Positions 35,993-61,906 of a DNA stretch of 64,000 nucleotides are shown one piece after another. The notes below the pieces were generated by a model that was given only the letters and a program-made list of their open reading frames with translations, was not told the DNA's origin and did no database searches. Made by a program: the position numbers and the translations under genes. The DNA is from Acidimicrobiales bacterium (GTDB lineage: Bacteria; Actinomycetota; Acidimicrobiia; Acidimicrobiales; Iamiaceae): positions 62,001-126,000 of the forward strand of contig JAGQSO010000001.1 in NCBI GenBank assembly GCA_020439505.1, read 5' to 3'. Position 1 is the stretch's first letter; each line of letters begins with the position of its first letter.

Positions 35993-38353
35993 ATGCATCA
36001 GGAAACGCCGGTCCGCAGGTCCTTGCTCAACCGCCTGGGTAGGTGGTGCTACCGACGTCACCGCCTGGTGCTCGCGGTGTGGGTCGGGCTGATCGTGGTG
36101 CTGGGCGCCGTCACCTCCGCAGTGGGAACGGGCTATTCGTCGAGCTTCGGTGACTTCCACAGCGAGGCCACCCGGGGCTTCGACCTGATCGCGGCGGGCT
36201 TCGGGAAGGGTGAGGCAGGGGAGAGGGGGACGATCGTCTTCCTCGCCGACGGGAAACTCGACGACCCGGCCACCAAGACGGCGGTGGAGGAGATGTTGGC
36301 GTCGGTTCGCAAGATCGACGGCCTTACCGTCACCGGCCCCTTCGACAACCCCACCCAGGTGGCGATGCAGGGTCCGTTGGCCGGCCGCCTCGGGTTCGCC
36401 GACATCCAGCTCGATTCTTCGATCAAGACCTTCAAACAGATGCAGGAGATCGGCAAGGAGCTCCGGCTGCTGGTACCGGCCGCCGAGTCGGCCGGACTCG
36501 AGGTGGAGGTCGGGGGTCAGGTGTTCGCCGAGTTCCAGCCACCGGAATCCGAGGTGCTGGGACTGGGATTCGCCATCGTGATCCTGATCCTGGCGTTCGG
36601 TTCGGTGCTGGCCATGGGGTTGCCGATCGGGATGGCGGTGGCGGGTATCGCCTCGGGAGTGATGGTGGTGGGGCTGGCGTCCAACTTCATGGCCATGCCC
36701 GACTTCACCTCGACCATCGCCGTGATGCTCGGTCTCGGGGTGGGGATCGACTACGCCCTGTTCATCGTCACCCGCTTCCGGGAGGACCTGCACCGGGGGA
36801 TGAGCGGGGAGGCGGCGGCCGGGCACGCCCTCGACACCGCCGGTCGGGCGGTGATCTTCGCCGGGATCACGGTGATCATCTCGGTGCTGGGGATGATCGT
36901 CATGGGGCTCGGCTTCATCCGCGGCCTCGGGGTGGGGGCAGCGATCGCAGTTGCCTTCACGTTGGCCGCGTCGGTGACCCTCCTGCCGGCGCTCCTCGGC
37001 TTCGCCGGAGCGAAGCTCGAGGTGACCCGGCGACGAGGTCTGGTGGCGGCGGGTCTGGTGGCGGTAGGTCTGGTCGGCGTCGGACTTGGTTTCCCGGCGG
37101 CGTTGGGGGCGCTCGGTCTGGCGGTCCTGGTGTTGGTCTTCGGGACGTTCATTCCGGCGCTCCACCAGCCTCTCGCGCCCCGCGAGGTCCGAGACCACCG
37201 CACGTCGTTCTGGTTCCGTTTCGCCGGTTTCGTCCAACGGCGCCCGTGGCCCATCGCGCTGGGAGGCCTGGCCCTGCTCGTCGTGTTGGCCGTCCCCGTC
37301 CTCAGCCTGCGGCTCGGTTTCTCCGACGAGGGCAACTACCCCACCGATACCTCCACCCGACGGGCCTATGACCTCTTGGCCCAGGGTTTCGGCCCGGGCT
37401 TCAACGGCCCCCTGCTCCTGGTCACCAAGGTGCCCGAAGGGACCGACCCCCAGGCGCTGGAGAGGGTCACCAGCGCGGTCGGTGCCACCGATGGCGTGGC
37501 CTTCGTGTCGCCGGTGGTCCTGTCCGAGGACGGTTCCATCGCCCGGTGGTTCGCCATTCCCGACACCGCGCCCCAAGACGCCGCCACCTATTCGTTGGTG
37601 CGTGAGCTGAGAGGACCGGTCCTCGAAGGGGCGACCACCGGTACCGGTCTCGACGTGCTGGTGTCGTCCAACACCGCCATCGGGGTCGACTTCTCGGAGT
37701 ATCTCGCCGTCCGCTACCCGATCTTCTTCGGGGTGATCCTCGGGCTGTCCTTCCTGTTGTTGATGGCGGTGTTCCGGTCGGTGCTCGTGCCGTTGAAGGC
37801 GGTGTTCGTCAACCTGTTGTCGATCGGTGCCGCCTACGGCGTGGCGGTAGCGGTGTTCTCGTGGGGTTGGGGCGGCTCGCTGATCGGGGTGGCCGGAGGT
37901 GGACCGATCGAGCCGTTCATTCCGATGATGTTGTTCGCCATCGTCTTCGGGCTGTCGATGGACTACGAGGTCTTTCTCCTGTCGCGAATCAAGGAGGAGT
38001 ACGACCGAACCGGGGACAACGCCGCCGCGGTCCGCGACGGTCTGGCGCTCACCGCCCGGGTCATCACCGCCGCGGCGTTGATCATGGTGGTGGTGTTCGG
38101 TTCGTTCCTGTTGGAGTCCGACCGGGTGGTCAAGCTGATGGGCTTGGGACTTGCCGTGGCGGTCCTCCTCGATGCCACCGTGGTCCGGATGCTGCTGGTC
38201 CCCGCCACCATGGAGCTCCTCGGAGACCGCAACTGGTGGTTGCCGAGGTGGTTGGACCGAGTCCTGCCGGTGATCCACGTCGAGGCCCCGCCCGGGAGCG
38301 AGGCAGGGCACGAGGAAACTGACGAGGCCCGGGTCCTAGGGGGCCACCCATGA
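35993..38353 (+). CDS. MMPL family RND-type transporter
   Basis: A 786-residue transporter with two repeats of a large outer loop plus several helices. The first helix lies at about 24-48, the first outer domain at about 49-180, then helices containing GLGVGIDYALFIVTRFRED. The second repeat ends with LSMDYEVFLLSRIKEEYDRTGD. These Asp-Tyr pairs are the proton-relay sites of the MMPL family. Members export lipids or drugs using the proton gradient. The ATG at 35993 is preceded by GAGGA; a longer frame upstream lacks membrane-protein character. Its 3' end overlaps the convergent nuclease gene by 18 bp. Confidence 0.92.
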   Translation: MHQETPVRRSLLNRLGRWCYRRHRLVLAVWVGLIVVLGAVTSAVGTGYSSSFGDFHSEATRGFDLIAAGFGKGEAGERGTIVFLADGKLDDPATKTAVEEMLASVRKIDGLTVTGPFDNPTQVAMQGPLAGRLGFADIQLDSSIKTFKQMQEIGKELRLLVPAAESAGLEVEVGGQVFAEFQPPESEVLGLGFAIVILILAFGSVLAMGLPIGMAVAGIASGVMVVGLASNFMAMPDFTSTIAVMLGLGVGIDYALFIVTRFREDLHRGMSGEAAAGHALDTAGRAVIFAGITVIISVLGMIVMGLGFIRGLGVGAAIAVAFTLAASVTLLPALLGFAGAKLEVTRRRGLVAAGLVAVGLVGVGLGFPAALGALGLAVLVLVFGTFIPALHQPLAPREVRDHRTSFWFRFAGFVQRRPWPIALGGLALLVVLAVPVLSLRLGFSDEGNYPTDTSTRRAYDLLAQGFGPGFNGPLLLVTKVPEGTDPQALERVTSAVGATDGVAFVSPVVLSEDGSIARWFAIPDTAPQDAATYSLVRELRGPVLEGATTGTGLDVLVSSNTAIGVDFSEYLAVRYPIFFGVILGLSFLLLMAVFRSVLVPLKAVFVNLLSIGAAYGVAVAVFSWGWGGSLIGVAGGGPIEPFIPMMLFAIVFGLSMDYEVFLLSRIKEEYDRTGDNAAAVRDGLALTARVITAAALIMVVVFGSFLLESDRVVKLMGLGLAVAVLLDATVVRMLLVPATMELLGDRNWWLPRWLDRVLPVIHVEAPPGSEAGHEETDEARVLGGHP

Positions 38354-40537
38354 CCCGATGGACGGGATCTCGGCCGTGGCCAGCCAGTGTCGTACGGCGT
38401 GAGTGGCCCTGACGTCGTCCTCGTTGTACTGGAGCAGTCGGCCCCGGTTGTGGGAGCGAGCTTCCGGGGACGGGTTGTTGACCGCCTCGCGGTACCAGTT
38501 CATGGACTGGAGGCCGCCGGCGTCGGGATCGCGCCAGCCGAACCCGGCGAGGGGGGCGATCTTCTTGAGACCGAACCCGTGACCGACGACGAGGCTTGCC
38601 CTGACGACCTGATACATGTCGACCCAGTCCGGCGAGGCCACCAGATCCTCGATCGCCTCGCGCCGGCCGGGAACGGGTCGGGGTGCTTCGTCGAGGATCT
38701 GCACCATCTTGTTGTGTTCGGCCGAGGTGTAGCAGTAGGCGGCGAAGGACAGCCCGAGGCTCCGGCACCGGTGGCGTAGATCGCTGAGCCACGCCCAGAA
38801 GCGATCGAAGACGTCGAGTTGCACGCCGGCGTCCACGGGATCCCACGAGAAGAAGGGCCGGTAGCCGGCCTCCACGCCGACCTGGTCCAGTGCCGGGGCG
38901 GTGCCCGACACCAGGGTTCCCCACAGGTAGACGCCGTCATCGATGTTCTCCATGTCGACGTCCACCTCGACGTCGGCCAGTCGCACCTTGGGTCGCAGTA
39001 GACCCCGAGCCAGGAAAGGCCCTCCCCCGTTGCTGGCCCTGGCTTGGTCGATCACGGTCGGAAGGTGTCCGCAAAGCGTGTTGGAGTAGCCGGCAGTGAA
39101 CGGGTCGAGTTGGGCCAGGTCGCCGACGGTTGTCATCCCCAAAGTGGCCAGCCGGTCCACCAACACCGACATCGATCGGTCCGGGGTGGGTGGGTCGGGA
39201 GGTCCCATCGGATCGGCATCGAGATCAGGAGCGAGGTGTTCGCCTTCGGGCTCGGTCTCCAAGTCGGCTTCTAGGTCGAGGTCGCCATCAAGGTCGAGAC
39301 TGAGCTGGACGGCTCGGTGCCGAACCGGTTCGAGATGCAAGAAGCCGGGCTGTGCGTCGAGGTGCAGCTCAGGGGAGGTGATCGGAGACGACCAGATGAA
39401 TTGGTCGAAGTCGGAGGGCGGGCTCTGCACTGTGGGCAGCAGCAACGCGGCCAGGTCGGTTTCGCCCGGGAGGCCCTCGGTCCGTTCGAGGAGGTCGGCG
39501 GCATCGACGACAGGGTCGCGGGGACTGTCTCCGAACATCAGCCACGCGGTGTTCCAGTCGAGAGCGGCAACCTGGGCCCGGGTGGTGACGGAGCGATCGC
39601 GGTGGACCAGCACATGGTCGTAGGTCGAGCGTGGAATCAATGAGATGTGGTCCAGCGCCTCCATCTCGGCCCGGCACACGGGATCCCAGGGACAGGTCGC
39701 GCACTGACCGATGTGCACCGGTACGACGCCTCGGGGAACGTCGGGATCGGCGTCGCGGGCCAGGCGGTTGGCGATGACCTCCAGTCGGAAACCGAAACCG
39801 TGGTCGTAGTGGGCGAGGGTGCTGACCAGCCCTGATGCCCAGCGGTTGGGCCAACGGGGCTCGTCGAGGGCCAGCCACCACAGCTGCCCGTCGCCGTCGA
39901 TCACGCCCCCGACGGGTCTCTCGGCTTGTGACACCGCGCCCACCGCCTCCAGCAGCCGCCACGAGTGGGCCAGCGCGATCCCGTTCTCGTTGTGACGGTT
40001 GTTGCGGGGCGACATGCCTTCCACCGTCACCGCCGATGACGGGTGTGGTTCGTCCAGGTCCGAGGTGAGCAAGGTTCCTCCGGTTGCCGGCCGGACGAAG
40101 GCGTGGCGACGGATCTCGACCGGAACCCACGTCGAGCGATCAGCTCCCGGGTTGCGGCGAACCAGCAGGGTCGTGCGTCCGAGGCGTCGACCGCCGGGAT
40201 CATCGGGCAACGCGGCCCCGATGATCACGGTGGCGTCCGAGGCGATCGCCGCCAGCGTCGCCGCGGTCGCCTCCTCGCGCTGTCCCTGGATCACGACGGC
40301 CCGTCCGCCGGACCGGTTCACCCGGTCGGCCAACTCCACCCCTACCCGCTCAGCGTGGGCGGCGGTCAGCTCCGCCCGATGCAGTTGGTCGGGGTCGGGG
40401 GCGCGCCGTCGGGGGGCCATGGAGGGAGCGTGGTCGAGATCGGCCCGAACCGGGCAGCGCATGGCGACCTCGGCCGGTTGGAGGGGCACGTCGGTGAGCT
40501 CGACACCGGGGTGGGGTGTCGGGGTGCCGTACTCCAT
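38336..40537 (-). CDS. TM0106-type RecB-like nuclease with RNase-H-like domain
   Basis: A 733-residue protein. The N-terminal half resembles RecB-family PD-(D/E)XK nucleases with an iron-sulfur-type cysteine cluster CATCPWDPVC near residue 275. An Asp/Glu-rich linker (about 390-430) leads to a C-terminal RNase-H/YprB-like domain: DVDMENIDDGVYLWG, GLKKIAPLAGFGWRD and YNEDDVRATHAVRHWL (DEDD-type acidic residues). This matches the TM0106 family of putative nucleases, of unknown biological role. A TACCTT hexamer 6 nt before the ATG suggests leaderless expression. Convergent and overlapping with the MMPL gene. Confidence 0.85.
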   Translation of the reverse strand: MEYGTPTPHPGVELTDVPLQPAEVAMRCPVRADLDHAPSMAPRRRAPDPDQLHRAELTAAHAERVGVELADRVNRSGGRAVVIQGQREEATAATLAAIASDATVIIGAALPDDPGGRRLGRTTLLVRRNPGADRSTWVPVEIRRHAFVRPATGGTLLTSDLDEPHPSSAVTVEGMSPRNNRHNENGIALAHSWRLLEAVGAVSQAERPVGGVIDGDGQLWWLALDEPRWPNRWASGLVSTLAHYDHGFGFRLEVIANRLARDADPDVPRGVVPVHIGQCATCPWDPVCRAEMEALDHISLIPRSTYDHVLVHRDRSVTTRAQVAALDWNTAWLMFGDSPRDPVVDAADLLERTEGLPGETDLAALLLPTVQSPPSDFDQFIWSSPITSPELHLDAQPGFLHLEPVRHRAVQLSLDLDGDLDLEADLETEPEGEHLAPDLDADPMGPPDPPTPDRSMSVLVDRLATLGMTTVGDLAQLDPFTAGYSNTLCGHLPTVIDQARASNGGGPFLARGLLRPKVRLADVEVDVDMENIDDGVYLWGTLVSGTAPALDQVGVEAGYRPFFSWDPVDAGVQLDVFDRFWAWLSDLRHRCRSLGLSFAAYCYTSAEHNKMVQILDEAPRPVPGRREAIEDLVASPDWVDMYQVVRASLVVGHGFGLKKIAPLAGFGWRDPDAGGLQSMNWYREAVNNPSPEARSHNRGRLLQYNEDDVRATHAVRHWLATAEIPSIGSWVAP

Positions 40538-41715: not shown

Positions 41716-43173
41716 TCAGTCCGGGGATTGCCCTGTTGCCATCGCGGCGAGGCTTGCCGTGGCGTCGGGGTCGGTGATGGGTAGAACCGCCCGCAGAGGT
41801 CCTTGGTCACCCAGGGCGCGGCGCAGGGCCTGGTGGCCTGGGGTCGAGGGAGCGGGGAGGTCGGTGGTGAGCACGACGACCTCCATGTCGGTGGCGGCCC
41901 GGATGACGGCCGCCTGCCCGATCACCCGCCACAGCTCGTCCGAGCGCCTCAAACCGGACCGCGAGTTGGTGAACCCGCCCGATGTGATGAAGGCCCAGGG
42001 TCTACCCGATGGGTCGTGGGCGACGAGGTCGACCTCGACTCCGGCTCCCCGTGGGCGGACCTTGGTGGTCACGTCGCGGAAGCCGGCGGCCTCGACGAGG
42101 AGGCGGGCAACGTCACGACTGCCGAGACCGGCCCGGAGGGCGTCATCCACCGAGGCCGCCTGTCCGGCGCGGTCGGTGGGCTGGAGCCCGGACAGCTCGT
42201 CACCCACCTGGAAGGCGACCCGACGGGGGTCGGGGTCGGTTTCGGTGGCCAGGCGACGGCCCGCCAGCTCTATGTACTCGGCGTCGGTGTCGAATCCGAT
42301 GAAGTGCCGGCCGGTTCGCCGGGCGGCCACCGCGGTACTACCCGACCCCATGAACGGGTCCAGCACCACGTCGTTGGCGTAGGTGTACAGGTCGATGAGC
42401 CGTTGGGGGAGCTCGACGGGGAACGGCGCGGGGTGGCCTACCCGGGTGGCGCTCTCGGTGGGGATCTCCCACAGGTCGGTGGTGGCTTCCATGAACTCGT
42501 CGCGCGAGACGGTGACGGTGGAGGGCAGCCCGCTCTCCTGTCGTCGGCGAGGCTCCAACGCCCGGTCGAAGCGACCCTTGCTGGCGATCACGATGCGTTC
42601 GGTCACGTCGCGCAGCACCGGGTTCGCCGGTCGTTGGAACGTGCCCCAGGCGCAGGATCCGCCCGCAGCCCGGCCCTTCCACCAGATCACCTCGCCTCGC
42701 ATCAAGAGGCCCAGGTCTTGAAGGATCGCGGTCACGTCGCCCGACAGCGAGCGGTACGGCCGACGGCCGAGGTTGGCGACGTTCACCGCGATGCGACCGC
42801 CAGGCTCCAGCACCCGTTTGCACTCGGAGAACACGCCGTGGAGGAGCTCCAGGTATTCGAGGTAGGTGGCGGGAACGCCGTTCTCCCCCAGGCTCTGCTC
42901 GTACTGCTTGCCGGCGAAGTAGGGAGGCGACGTGACCACCAGGGCCACCGACCCGGTCGGGATCATCGACATGTCCCGAGCGTCGTGGTGGTGGATCACG
43001 TCCAGCTCCTCGGGGGTGCTGACGGTCTGATCGGTGGTCAGCTCGGGACTGGTGAATCGGGCGTAGAAGTCGCGTGCGTCGTGGCTCTCGCGCCGACCGG
43101 ACCCGAAGGCCGCGGTGGCGGTGGCGCGTCGGGTCCGGGAACTCGAGCGGGTGTTCGGAACGGAGGCGGTCAC
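41716..43173 (-). CDS. Beta-class DNA methyltransferase with C-terminal eroded PD-(D/E)XK-like domain
   Basis: A 485-residue protein. Motif IV TSPPYF (81-86) precedes motif I DPFMGSGST (272-280), the beta-class order of N4-cytosine/N6-adenine methyltransferases; HPAPFPVELPQRLI (247-260) resembles N4-cytosine enzymes. Residues about 345-470 form an extra domain with GVEVD (378-382) and WAFITSGG that aligns with the stand-alone protein at 61313-61906; the nuclease Glu and Lys are replaced by Phe395 and Thr397. GTG start overlaps the stop of the ribbon-helix-helix gene (GTGA). No separate restriction endonuclease gene is adjacent. Target sequence unknown. Confidence 0.88.
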   Translation of the reverse strand: MTASVPNTRSSSRTRRATATAAFGSGRRESHDARDFYARFTSPELTTDQTVSTPEELDVIHHHDARDMSMIPTGSVALVVTSPPYFAGKQYEQSLGENGVPATYLEYLELLHGVFSECKRVLEPGGRIAVNVANLGRRPYRSLSGDVTAILQDLGLLMRGEVIWWKGRAAGGSCAWGTFQRPANPVLRDVTERIVIASKGRFDRALEPRRRQESGLPSTVTVSRDEFMEATTDLWEIPTESATRVGHPAPFPVELPQRLIDLYTYANDVVLDPFMGSGSTAVAARRTGRHFIGFDTDAEYIELAGRRLATETDPDPRRVAFQVGDELSGLQPTDRAGQAASVDDALRAGLGSRDVARLLVEAAGFRDVTTKVRPRGAGVEVDLVAHDPSGRPWAFITSGGFTNSRSGLRRSDELWRVIGQAAVIRAATDMEVVVLTTDLPAPSTPGHQALRRALGDQGPLRAVLPITDPDATASLAAMATGQSPD

Positions 43174-61312: not shown

Positions 61313-61906
61313 TCACCAGTTCTTGAGCCGGGCGGTGGACGTGGGGTCGTACAGGCAGACGACATCGGCGAAGCAGCGGATGTCCATGGCGGCTCGCAAC
61401 ATGGCGGCGCCCGACCCGGCCTCGGGAAGATGCGAGGTGACGACGACGTAGGGGGCCGGAGTGGGAAGGCTCCGCAGCAGGGCGCCGTTGGCGATGGCCT
61501 TCTTGAGGGTGTCGGTCCGGCGCAGACCGGGCCGCGTGCCCTGGACACTGCCCTTGTACTCGAACCAAACCACCTGCCCCTTGGGGCTGACGGCCTCCTG
61601 GTCGATCTCCACGCCGACCTCTCTGATGACCTTCCGGCCCTTGAGCGTGAAACCCAGGTGGGTGAGCAGGGTGTCGCACTGTTCGGCGAACTGGCGGCCC
61701 TGGATGCTGGCCGACGCCTGGAAGGATCGGGCCGGCCCCGGGTCGCGCCTGCGGTCCCGGGTCGGAAGGTGGGCCCCACCCCATGGGCTCTCCTCGTTCT
61801 CGTCGACCTCGAACTCCGACTCCGTGGTCGAACCGGTGTCACCGGTCTCGACGTGAGTGAAGAAAGAGTCCTGTCCTCCGAGGGGTGGGTGGTCCGACGG
61901 TGCCAT
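61313..61906 (-). CDS. PD-(D/E)XK nuclease-like protein upstream of glgE
   Basis: A 197-residue protein. An acidic, disordered N-terminus (1 to about 65) precedes a compact domain: QCDTLLTHLGFTL (about 76-88), GVEID (98-102), VVWFEYKG (112-119), PGLRRTDTLKKAI (126-138) and YVVVTSHLP (153-161). D102, E116 and K118 fit the D...ExK active site of PD-(D/E)XK nucleases. The same order occurs, without the catalytic Glu and Lys, at the end of the DNA methyltransferase at 41716-43173. It starts the glgE operon (19 nt gap), with TAGGCT 8 nt before its ATG. Nuclease activity is predicted, not shown. Confidence 0.68.
   Translation of the reverse strand: MAPSDHPPLGGQDSFFTHVETGDTGSTTESEFEVDENEESPWGGAHLPTRDRRRDPGPARSFQASASIQGRQFAEQCDTLLTHLGFTLKGRKVIREVGVEIDQEAVSPKGQVVWFEYKGSVQGTRPGLRRTDTLKKAIANGALLRSLPTPAPYVVVTSHLPEAGSGAAMLRAAMDIRCFADVVCLYDPTSTARLKNW

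Follow-up and report, generated by a model that had tools for sequence, protein, structure and literature searches.

The fused methyltransferase gene and its stand-alone paralogue

The window, by which we mean the whole stretch of 64,000 nucleotides analysed here from the genome of an Acidimicrobiales bacterium, carries on its minus strand a gene (P0001) in which a DNA methyltransferase is followed by an additional domain, and a second gene (P0003) for a small paralogue of that domain.

41716..43173, minus strand: P0001, the fused protein of 485 amino acids with a GTG start, a beta-class type II DNA methyltransferase with a C-terminal pseudo-PD-(D/E)XK domain
42241..43113, minus strand: methyltransferase part, residues ~21-311 (PF01555, PADLOC MTase_II, PDB relatives)
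42139..42237, minus strand: variable linker, residues about 313-345 (mean column conservation 0.26; low pLDDT over most of the linker)
41734..42138, minus strand: pseudo-PD-(D/E)XK domain, residues ~346-480 (core pLDDT >90; HHalign to the P0003 family; Foldseek)
41980..41988, minus strand: former catalytic Glu-X-Lys, now Ile396-Thr397-Ser398 (alignments with P0003; 127 fused homologues)
61313..61906, minus strand: P0003, the stand-alone paralogue of 197 amino acids, a putative active nuclease (intact E-x-D ... E-x-K; just upstream of glgE)

A preliminary description of this DNA had proposed a complete beta-class methyltransferase at 41716-43173, and this was borne out. Residues 76-304 matched Pfam PF01555 (N6/N4 DNA methylase; E 1.1e-38), and the PADLOC model MTase_II matched the methyltransferase part at 1e-81. 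The TSPPY motif IV (residues 81-85) lies ahead of the SAM-binding DPFMGSGST (272-280), which is the beta-class order; an N6_N4_Mtase domain with (S/D)PPY before an FxGxG-type motif, as expected of a type II beta-class enzyme, is therefore present. The PDB relatives of P0001 (2zie, 3.7e-33; 8s9m/8s9n) include DNA cytosine-N4 methyltransferases. Because of these relatives and the TSPPY motif, the product is probably N4-methylcytosine.

The same description had counted ~125 extra residues after the methyltransferase. The extra domain is real, but it covers ~135 residues, at about 345-480, behind the variable linker. All the motifs quoted for it, GVEVD (378-382), WAFITSGG (393-400), GLRRSDELWRVI and VVVLTTDLP, are present in P0001. 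Its alignment in order with P0003 was also reproduced, by BLASTP (E 6e-11, 30% over 164 columns) and by the profile-profile comparison that the description had called for (HHalign probability 99.8%, E 1.6e-28, 143 columns, between the fused-domain and P0003 families). P0001 was the only other convincing match of P0003 in the window's own genome (E 2.3e-8). FEYKG of P0003 aligns with F395-I396-T397-S398-G399 of P0001. The Glu and Lys of P0003 are replaced in P0001 by Ile396 and Ser398, and not by Phe395 and Thr397 as first described, a numbering off by one; Asp382 of the first motif is kept. The C-terminal part of P0001 had no match in Pfam, NCBIfam or PADLOC, and no convincing family was found for the fused domain or for P0003 in these databases or in PHROGs. 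Searches of PDB sequences with P0003 (phmmer and profile searches) gave chance matches only.

The C-terminal region of P0001 is predicted to have a PD-(D/E)XK fold. The AlphaFold model of residues 305-485, with 13 homologues aligned, has a core pLDDT >90 and consists of a helix, three strands, a helix, a strand, a helix, a strand and a helix; this order of elements recurs in the model of the P0003 core, which was built from 29 sequences and has a pLDDT of 91.8. The core topology of the PD-(D/E)XK superfamily, helix, three strands, helix, strand, is present in the predicted models. In both, the second strand carries the position of the catalytic Asp and the third those of Glu-X-Lys; D382, I396 and S398 sit on strands equivalent to those that bear D, E and K in the P0003 family.

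In Foldseek searches of the PDB, the best matches of the fused domain included SfsA, EcoO109I, EndoMS/NucS, MUS81, BsoBI, Card1, XisH, Can2 and Ecl18kI, and those of P0003 included SfsA, Card1, EndoMS, BsoBI, BstEII, XisH, MunI and FokI. The E-values for both domains were about 0.003-0.2, with probabilities up to 1.0; the absence of any E-value below 0.001 is expected because the fold is so diverse. The restriction-like fold proposed earlier is supported by the models and the nuclease matches: the structure prediction and structural search suggested with it returned the PD-(D/E)XK element order, with restriction and repair nucleases matched.

One gene separates the methyltransferase from another gene at 38336-40537 (minus strand), whose 733-amino-acid product has an RNase_H_2 domain and a CATCPWDPVC cysteine cluster. 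Presumably this protein resembles TM0106/RecB-like nucleases.

Loss of the catalytic residues in fused homologues

We counted residues over a non-redundant set of 127 fused homologues, almost all of which belong to Acidimicrobiales. The position of the catalytic Lys held Ser in 63 copies, Ala in 37, Thr in 11, Val in 5, Cys in 4, Gly in 4 and Pro in 3, and never Lys or Arg. At the Glu position (I396 in P0001), 92 copies had Asp and 20 had Glu. The first Asp was retained in 34 copies and otherwise mostly replaced by Asn or Ser. The window lineage (L004, L005 and L015) is one step further eroded, the Glu position being held by Ile, Leu or Val. D, E and K were intact in all 29 aligned stand-alone relatives. 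The D ... (D/E)-x-K pattern of an active nuclease is thus absent from the fused domain and present in P0003, and the proposed loss of cleavage residues holds both for P0001, where Glu and Lys are replaced, and for its fused homologues, where Lys is absent in 127 of 127.

Other parts of the domain were retained. Gly399 and Gly407 were invariant in the 127 copies, Arg410 was found in 114, and W393, R405, R410 and D/E412 were conserved, with an R-x-G-L-x-R-T-D loop strongly conserved in the fused copies.

PD-(D/E)XK enzymes can relocate catalytic residues. Since 112 of the 127 homologues have Asp or Glu at the I396 position, the fused domain might still cut DNA through a rearranged set. However, Lys and Arg are missing from the Lys position in every copy, the window protein also lacks the acidic residue (Ile396), and it has Arg and Gln at the helix lysines of its relatives' LWKALGKA. 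We regard residual cutting as highly improbable.

A frameshift or assembly artefact as the source of the decay was ruled out, because 127 homologues show the same loss.

In trees of the nuclease domain, which were built from 137-179 columns and contain several long branches, all fused domains formed one clade (SH-aLRT 99 with 92 rows; bootstrap/SH-aLRT 100/99 with 59 rows). The clade was recovered in 100% of bootstrap trees of the 59-row tree, in a bootstrap run that had not fully settled. Because the fused domains form one clade, their loss of catalysis is most simply explained as a single old event. The erosion had been described as a trait of this protein; it is real, but it would be one old event common to the order and to other families of the phylum. 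Outside the class, the fused form was also found in further families of the same phylum (f67, f99 and f102); therefore, the fusion either predates the order or was transferred.

The fused domain and P0003 fall in separate clades and are old paralogues, P0003 being no recent source of the fused copy. A recent duplication within the window genome was ruled out on the same ground.

Distribution, selection and gene neighbourhoods

At a threshold of E <= 1e-40, the methyltransferase was present in 172 of 198 Acidimicrobiales genomes (135 of the 152 good ones), usually in one copy. A strong P0003 orthologue was found in 12 of the 198. Judged by such orthologues, most of the order would have no cognate nuclease. 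The best reading is that the P0001 family methyltransferase is a core gene of Acidimicrobiales and an orphan in most species. The preliminary description had suggested an orphan methyltransferase, which on this count fits most of the order; the window enzyme itself is not strictly an orphan, because the apparently intact paralogue P0003 survives 18 kb away, just upstream of glgE.

Across the 127 homologues, columns of the methyltransferase had a mean conservation of 0.74 and those of residues 139-240 one of 0.755, against 0.53 in the fused domain and 0.26 in the linker. Residues 139-240, the candidate target-recognition region, are as conserved as the catalytic core, which suggests one DNA motif common to the order. 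The recognition motif could not be assigned through relatives: those possibly characterised (M.PvuII-like; Methanothermobacter plasmids) are just 27-29% identical. Hiraoka et al. (2019) had one Acidimicrobiales draft genome, for which neither a motif nor a methyltransferase was reported (PMC6329791).

The fused domain is under purifying selection. In closer pairs its dN/dS was mostly 0.03-0.45, about double the value for the methyltransferase, as estimated by a simple counting method with synonymous sites saturated in many pairs. This agrees with the earlier proposal that the eroded domain had been kept. Would the domain nevertheless be a non-functional remnant drifting towards loss? It evolves faster than the methyltransferase, as measured by both dN/dS and column conservation, and it is missing from the methyltransferase in at least eight examined Acidimicrobiales genomes (G018, G172, G026, G097, G053, G155, G020 and G073), so it is not essential everywhere. 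Hidden frameshifted domains were sought behind the short methyltransferases of L108 and L172, and none was found. Drift towards loss is hard to reconcile with dN/dS well below 1 in close pairs, with the two invariant glycines and the conserved W393, R405, R410 and D/E412, or with retention of the domain across dozens of families and in other classes, and we think it improbable.

When the genome collection was scanned for the P0003 family, 31 loci were obtained, almost all of them in Acidimicrobiia or unclassified Actinomycetota, with one in a Methanocellaceae archaeon. Several arrangements were seen. An unfused methyltransferase of the same family adjoins an intact nuclease in the Methanocellaceae archaeon (L093), in two Actinomycetota (L090 and L091) and on a phage contig (L097), and these four methyltransferases branch first in the methyltransferase tree. 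Two Acidimicrobiia (L077 and L087) have the nuclease gene behind that of an unfused methyltransferase, and in L074-L076, L078 and L080-L084 an intact stand-alone nuclease comes directly after a fused methyltransferase. On two phage contigs (L095 and L096) and in a cyanophage, Sf-FR1, relatives of the nuclease adjoin other DNA methylases. No P0003 relative was found in plasmids at E 0.01, and one distant relative was found in named phages. In about 90 loci, no conserved operon partner besides the nuclease was found; one large neighbour cluster there looks like ubiquitous dehydrogenases.

In Synechococcus phage Sf-FR1 (L063, 4019-4417), the P0003 relative is flanked by genes for a DNA polymerase and a methyltransferase. 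Its annotation is that of a NO VEIN C-terminal domain protein, although the Pfam search here gave it no family.

Free copies of the dead domain were also observed. In f102, a second, free-standing degenerate nuclease-fold copy (FVLLARGTPDDG..GLRRND) is convergent to the fused methyltransferase (L187, 94-804, plus strand; L189, 1843-2658, minus strand; L190, 2-778, plus strand), and L092 and L094 contain similar free dead copies. In G179, a separate protein with a dead-type domain (WYFDVSGAFTSARAGLIRTDTMWK) and an extra C-terminal region is encoded just downstream of the fused methyltransferase (L008, 3495-3917, plus strand). In G324, the methyltransferase and the dead domain occupy two overlapping reading frames (L192, 1009-1944 and 1929-2858, minus strand), from a recent split or a sequencing frameshift.

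P0003 may be an active restriction enzyme for the site of the methyltransferase, the two forming a working restriction-modification pair. Another explanation is a repair nuclease with a role like that of EndoMS/NucS or Vsr, which would make the fused domain a descendant of a repair enzyme. EndoMS/NucS was among the best structural matches, at 18-19% identity, and most stand-alone copies still share about 60-80% identity over long distances, a slow pace for a restriction enzyme. The restriction enzymes EcoO109I and BsoBI were matched too, however, and in archaea and phages the nuclease adjoins methyltransferases of several unrelated types, as restriction enzymes do. A repair origin thus seems unlikely, if less so than the drift or the residual cutting considered above.

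The main job of the dead domain might instead be to pair with the intact stand-alone nuclease and to restrain or recruit it, as a dead-copy inhibitor or as part of a heterodimeric restriction complex. The two domains are homologous, the genes for the fused methyltransferase and the intact nuclease adjoin in many loci, and the window genus kept both proteins in the genomes seen. The occurrence of the methyltransferase in all 12 nuclease-bearing genomes is uninformative here, because 87% of genomes have it. Pairing cannot be the general function of the domain, because just 12 of 198 genomes have the nuclease, while most methyltransferases of the order retain the domain. As the main function, pairing appears about as improbable as drift towards loss.

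Origin and possible function of the fused enzyme

We consider it probable that a core methyltransferase, derived from a two-gene restriction-modification ancestor, keeps a dead nuclease copy as a DNA-binding or dimerisation module. The ancestor would have been a unit of a methyltransferase and a small PD-(D/E)XK nuclease, because unfused methyltransferases paired with intact nucleases branch basally. In a one-time fusion, a copy of the nuclease would have been joined to the C-terminus of the methyltransferase. The fused copy would then have lost its catalytic Lys, in many cases along with the first Asp and the Glu, with retention of the fold and the R-x-G-L-x-R-T-D loop. The free nuclease would later have been lost in most lineages, leaving the methyltransferase to be inherited like a core gene, probably making N4-methylcytosine at a single motif conserved across the order. 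The root of the tree and the direction of change, from pair to fusion, are moderately supported because of the small number of columns (137-179) and the several long branches; the archaeal and phage relatives that bear on the ancestry are few.

Restriction enzymes bind their own unmethylated recognition site. Therefore, an inactive restriction enzyme attached to its matching methyltransferase would most likely be a binding or dimerisation module. By this analogy, we infer that the fused domain binds DNA and improves the targeting or the dimerisation of the methyltransferase, and it could bring the enzyme to unmethylated sites or hold it there. A tentative proposal, to which we give considerably less weight, is that the dead domain reads unmethylated sites of the same motif as the methyltransferase, steers or gates methylation, and may restrain the surviving intact nuclease. 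If that were true, both halves of a restriction-modification system would have been merged into a class-wide epigenetic enzyme.

Conserved orphan methyltransferases, and their descent from restriction-modification systems, are well documented (Blow et al. 2016, PMC4752239; Fullmer et al. 2019, PMC6471742). Like CcrM, Dam and the haloarchaeal orphans, the present family is carried by most genomes within a high-rank taxon, as a rule in one copy (PMC4752239; PMC6471742), most members appear to have no cognate nuclease, as judged by P0003 orthologues, and the target region is conserved. Unlike CcrM and Dam, it belongs to another sequence family, is probably specific for N4-cytosine and includes a restriction-nuclease fold, and some lineages, that of the window among them, retain an intact nuclease paralogue.

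Type IIG/IIC enzymes such as MmeI likewise combine a nuclease fold and a methyltransferase in one polypeptide, with the nuclease active. In P0001, the fold is C-terminal and clusters with small stand-alone nucleases, and its catalytic residues are lost in all homologues examined, so the enzyme does not belong to that type. The family resembles two-gene type II systems in that a related unfused methyltransferase adjoins an intact nuclease in the four basal loci; it differs in that the nuclease matches no Pfam, NCBIfam or PADLOC model, and the P0003 family is not recognised as a restriction enzyme by these libraries for that reason. An extra domain on a type II methyltransferase is also known from Ecl18kI, SsoII and EcoRII, whose methyltransferases are fused to a repressor domain (review, PMC12707154). 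Their DNA-binding domain is an N-terminal helix-turn-helix, whereas here it would be a dead PD-(D/E)XK fold, with DNA binding proposed by analogy. In the open-access papers searched, we found no description of such a fusion between a class-wide methyltransferase and a dead restriction nuclease.

By the usual account, an orphan methyltransferase is what is left of a restriction-modification system that has lost its nuclease, and the intermediate steps are rarely preserved. Here, three stages are visible in living lineages: an unfused pair with an intact nuclease, a dead fusion with an intact neighbour, and the fused form alone. A PD-(D/E)XK nuclease family beside methyltransferases escapes Pfam, NCBIfam and PADLOC; therefore, among the methyltransferases now called orphans, some may have a partner that was overlooked. 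Acidimicrobiales, a large and barely studied order, now has a candidate equivalent of CcrM or Dam, and the fused gene looks like a defence gene that was domesticated long ago as a permanent part of the DNA-marking machinery.
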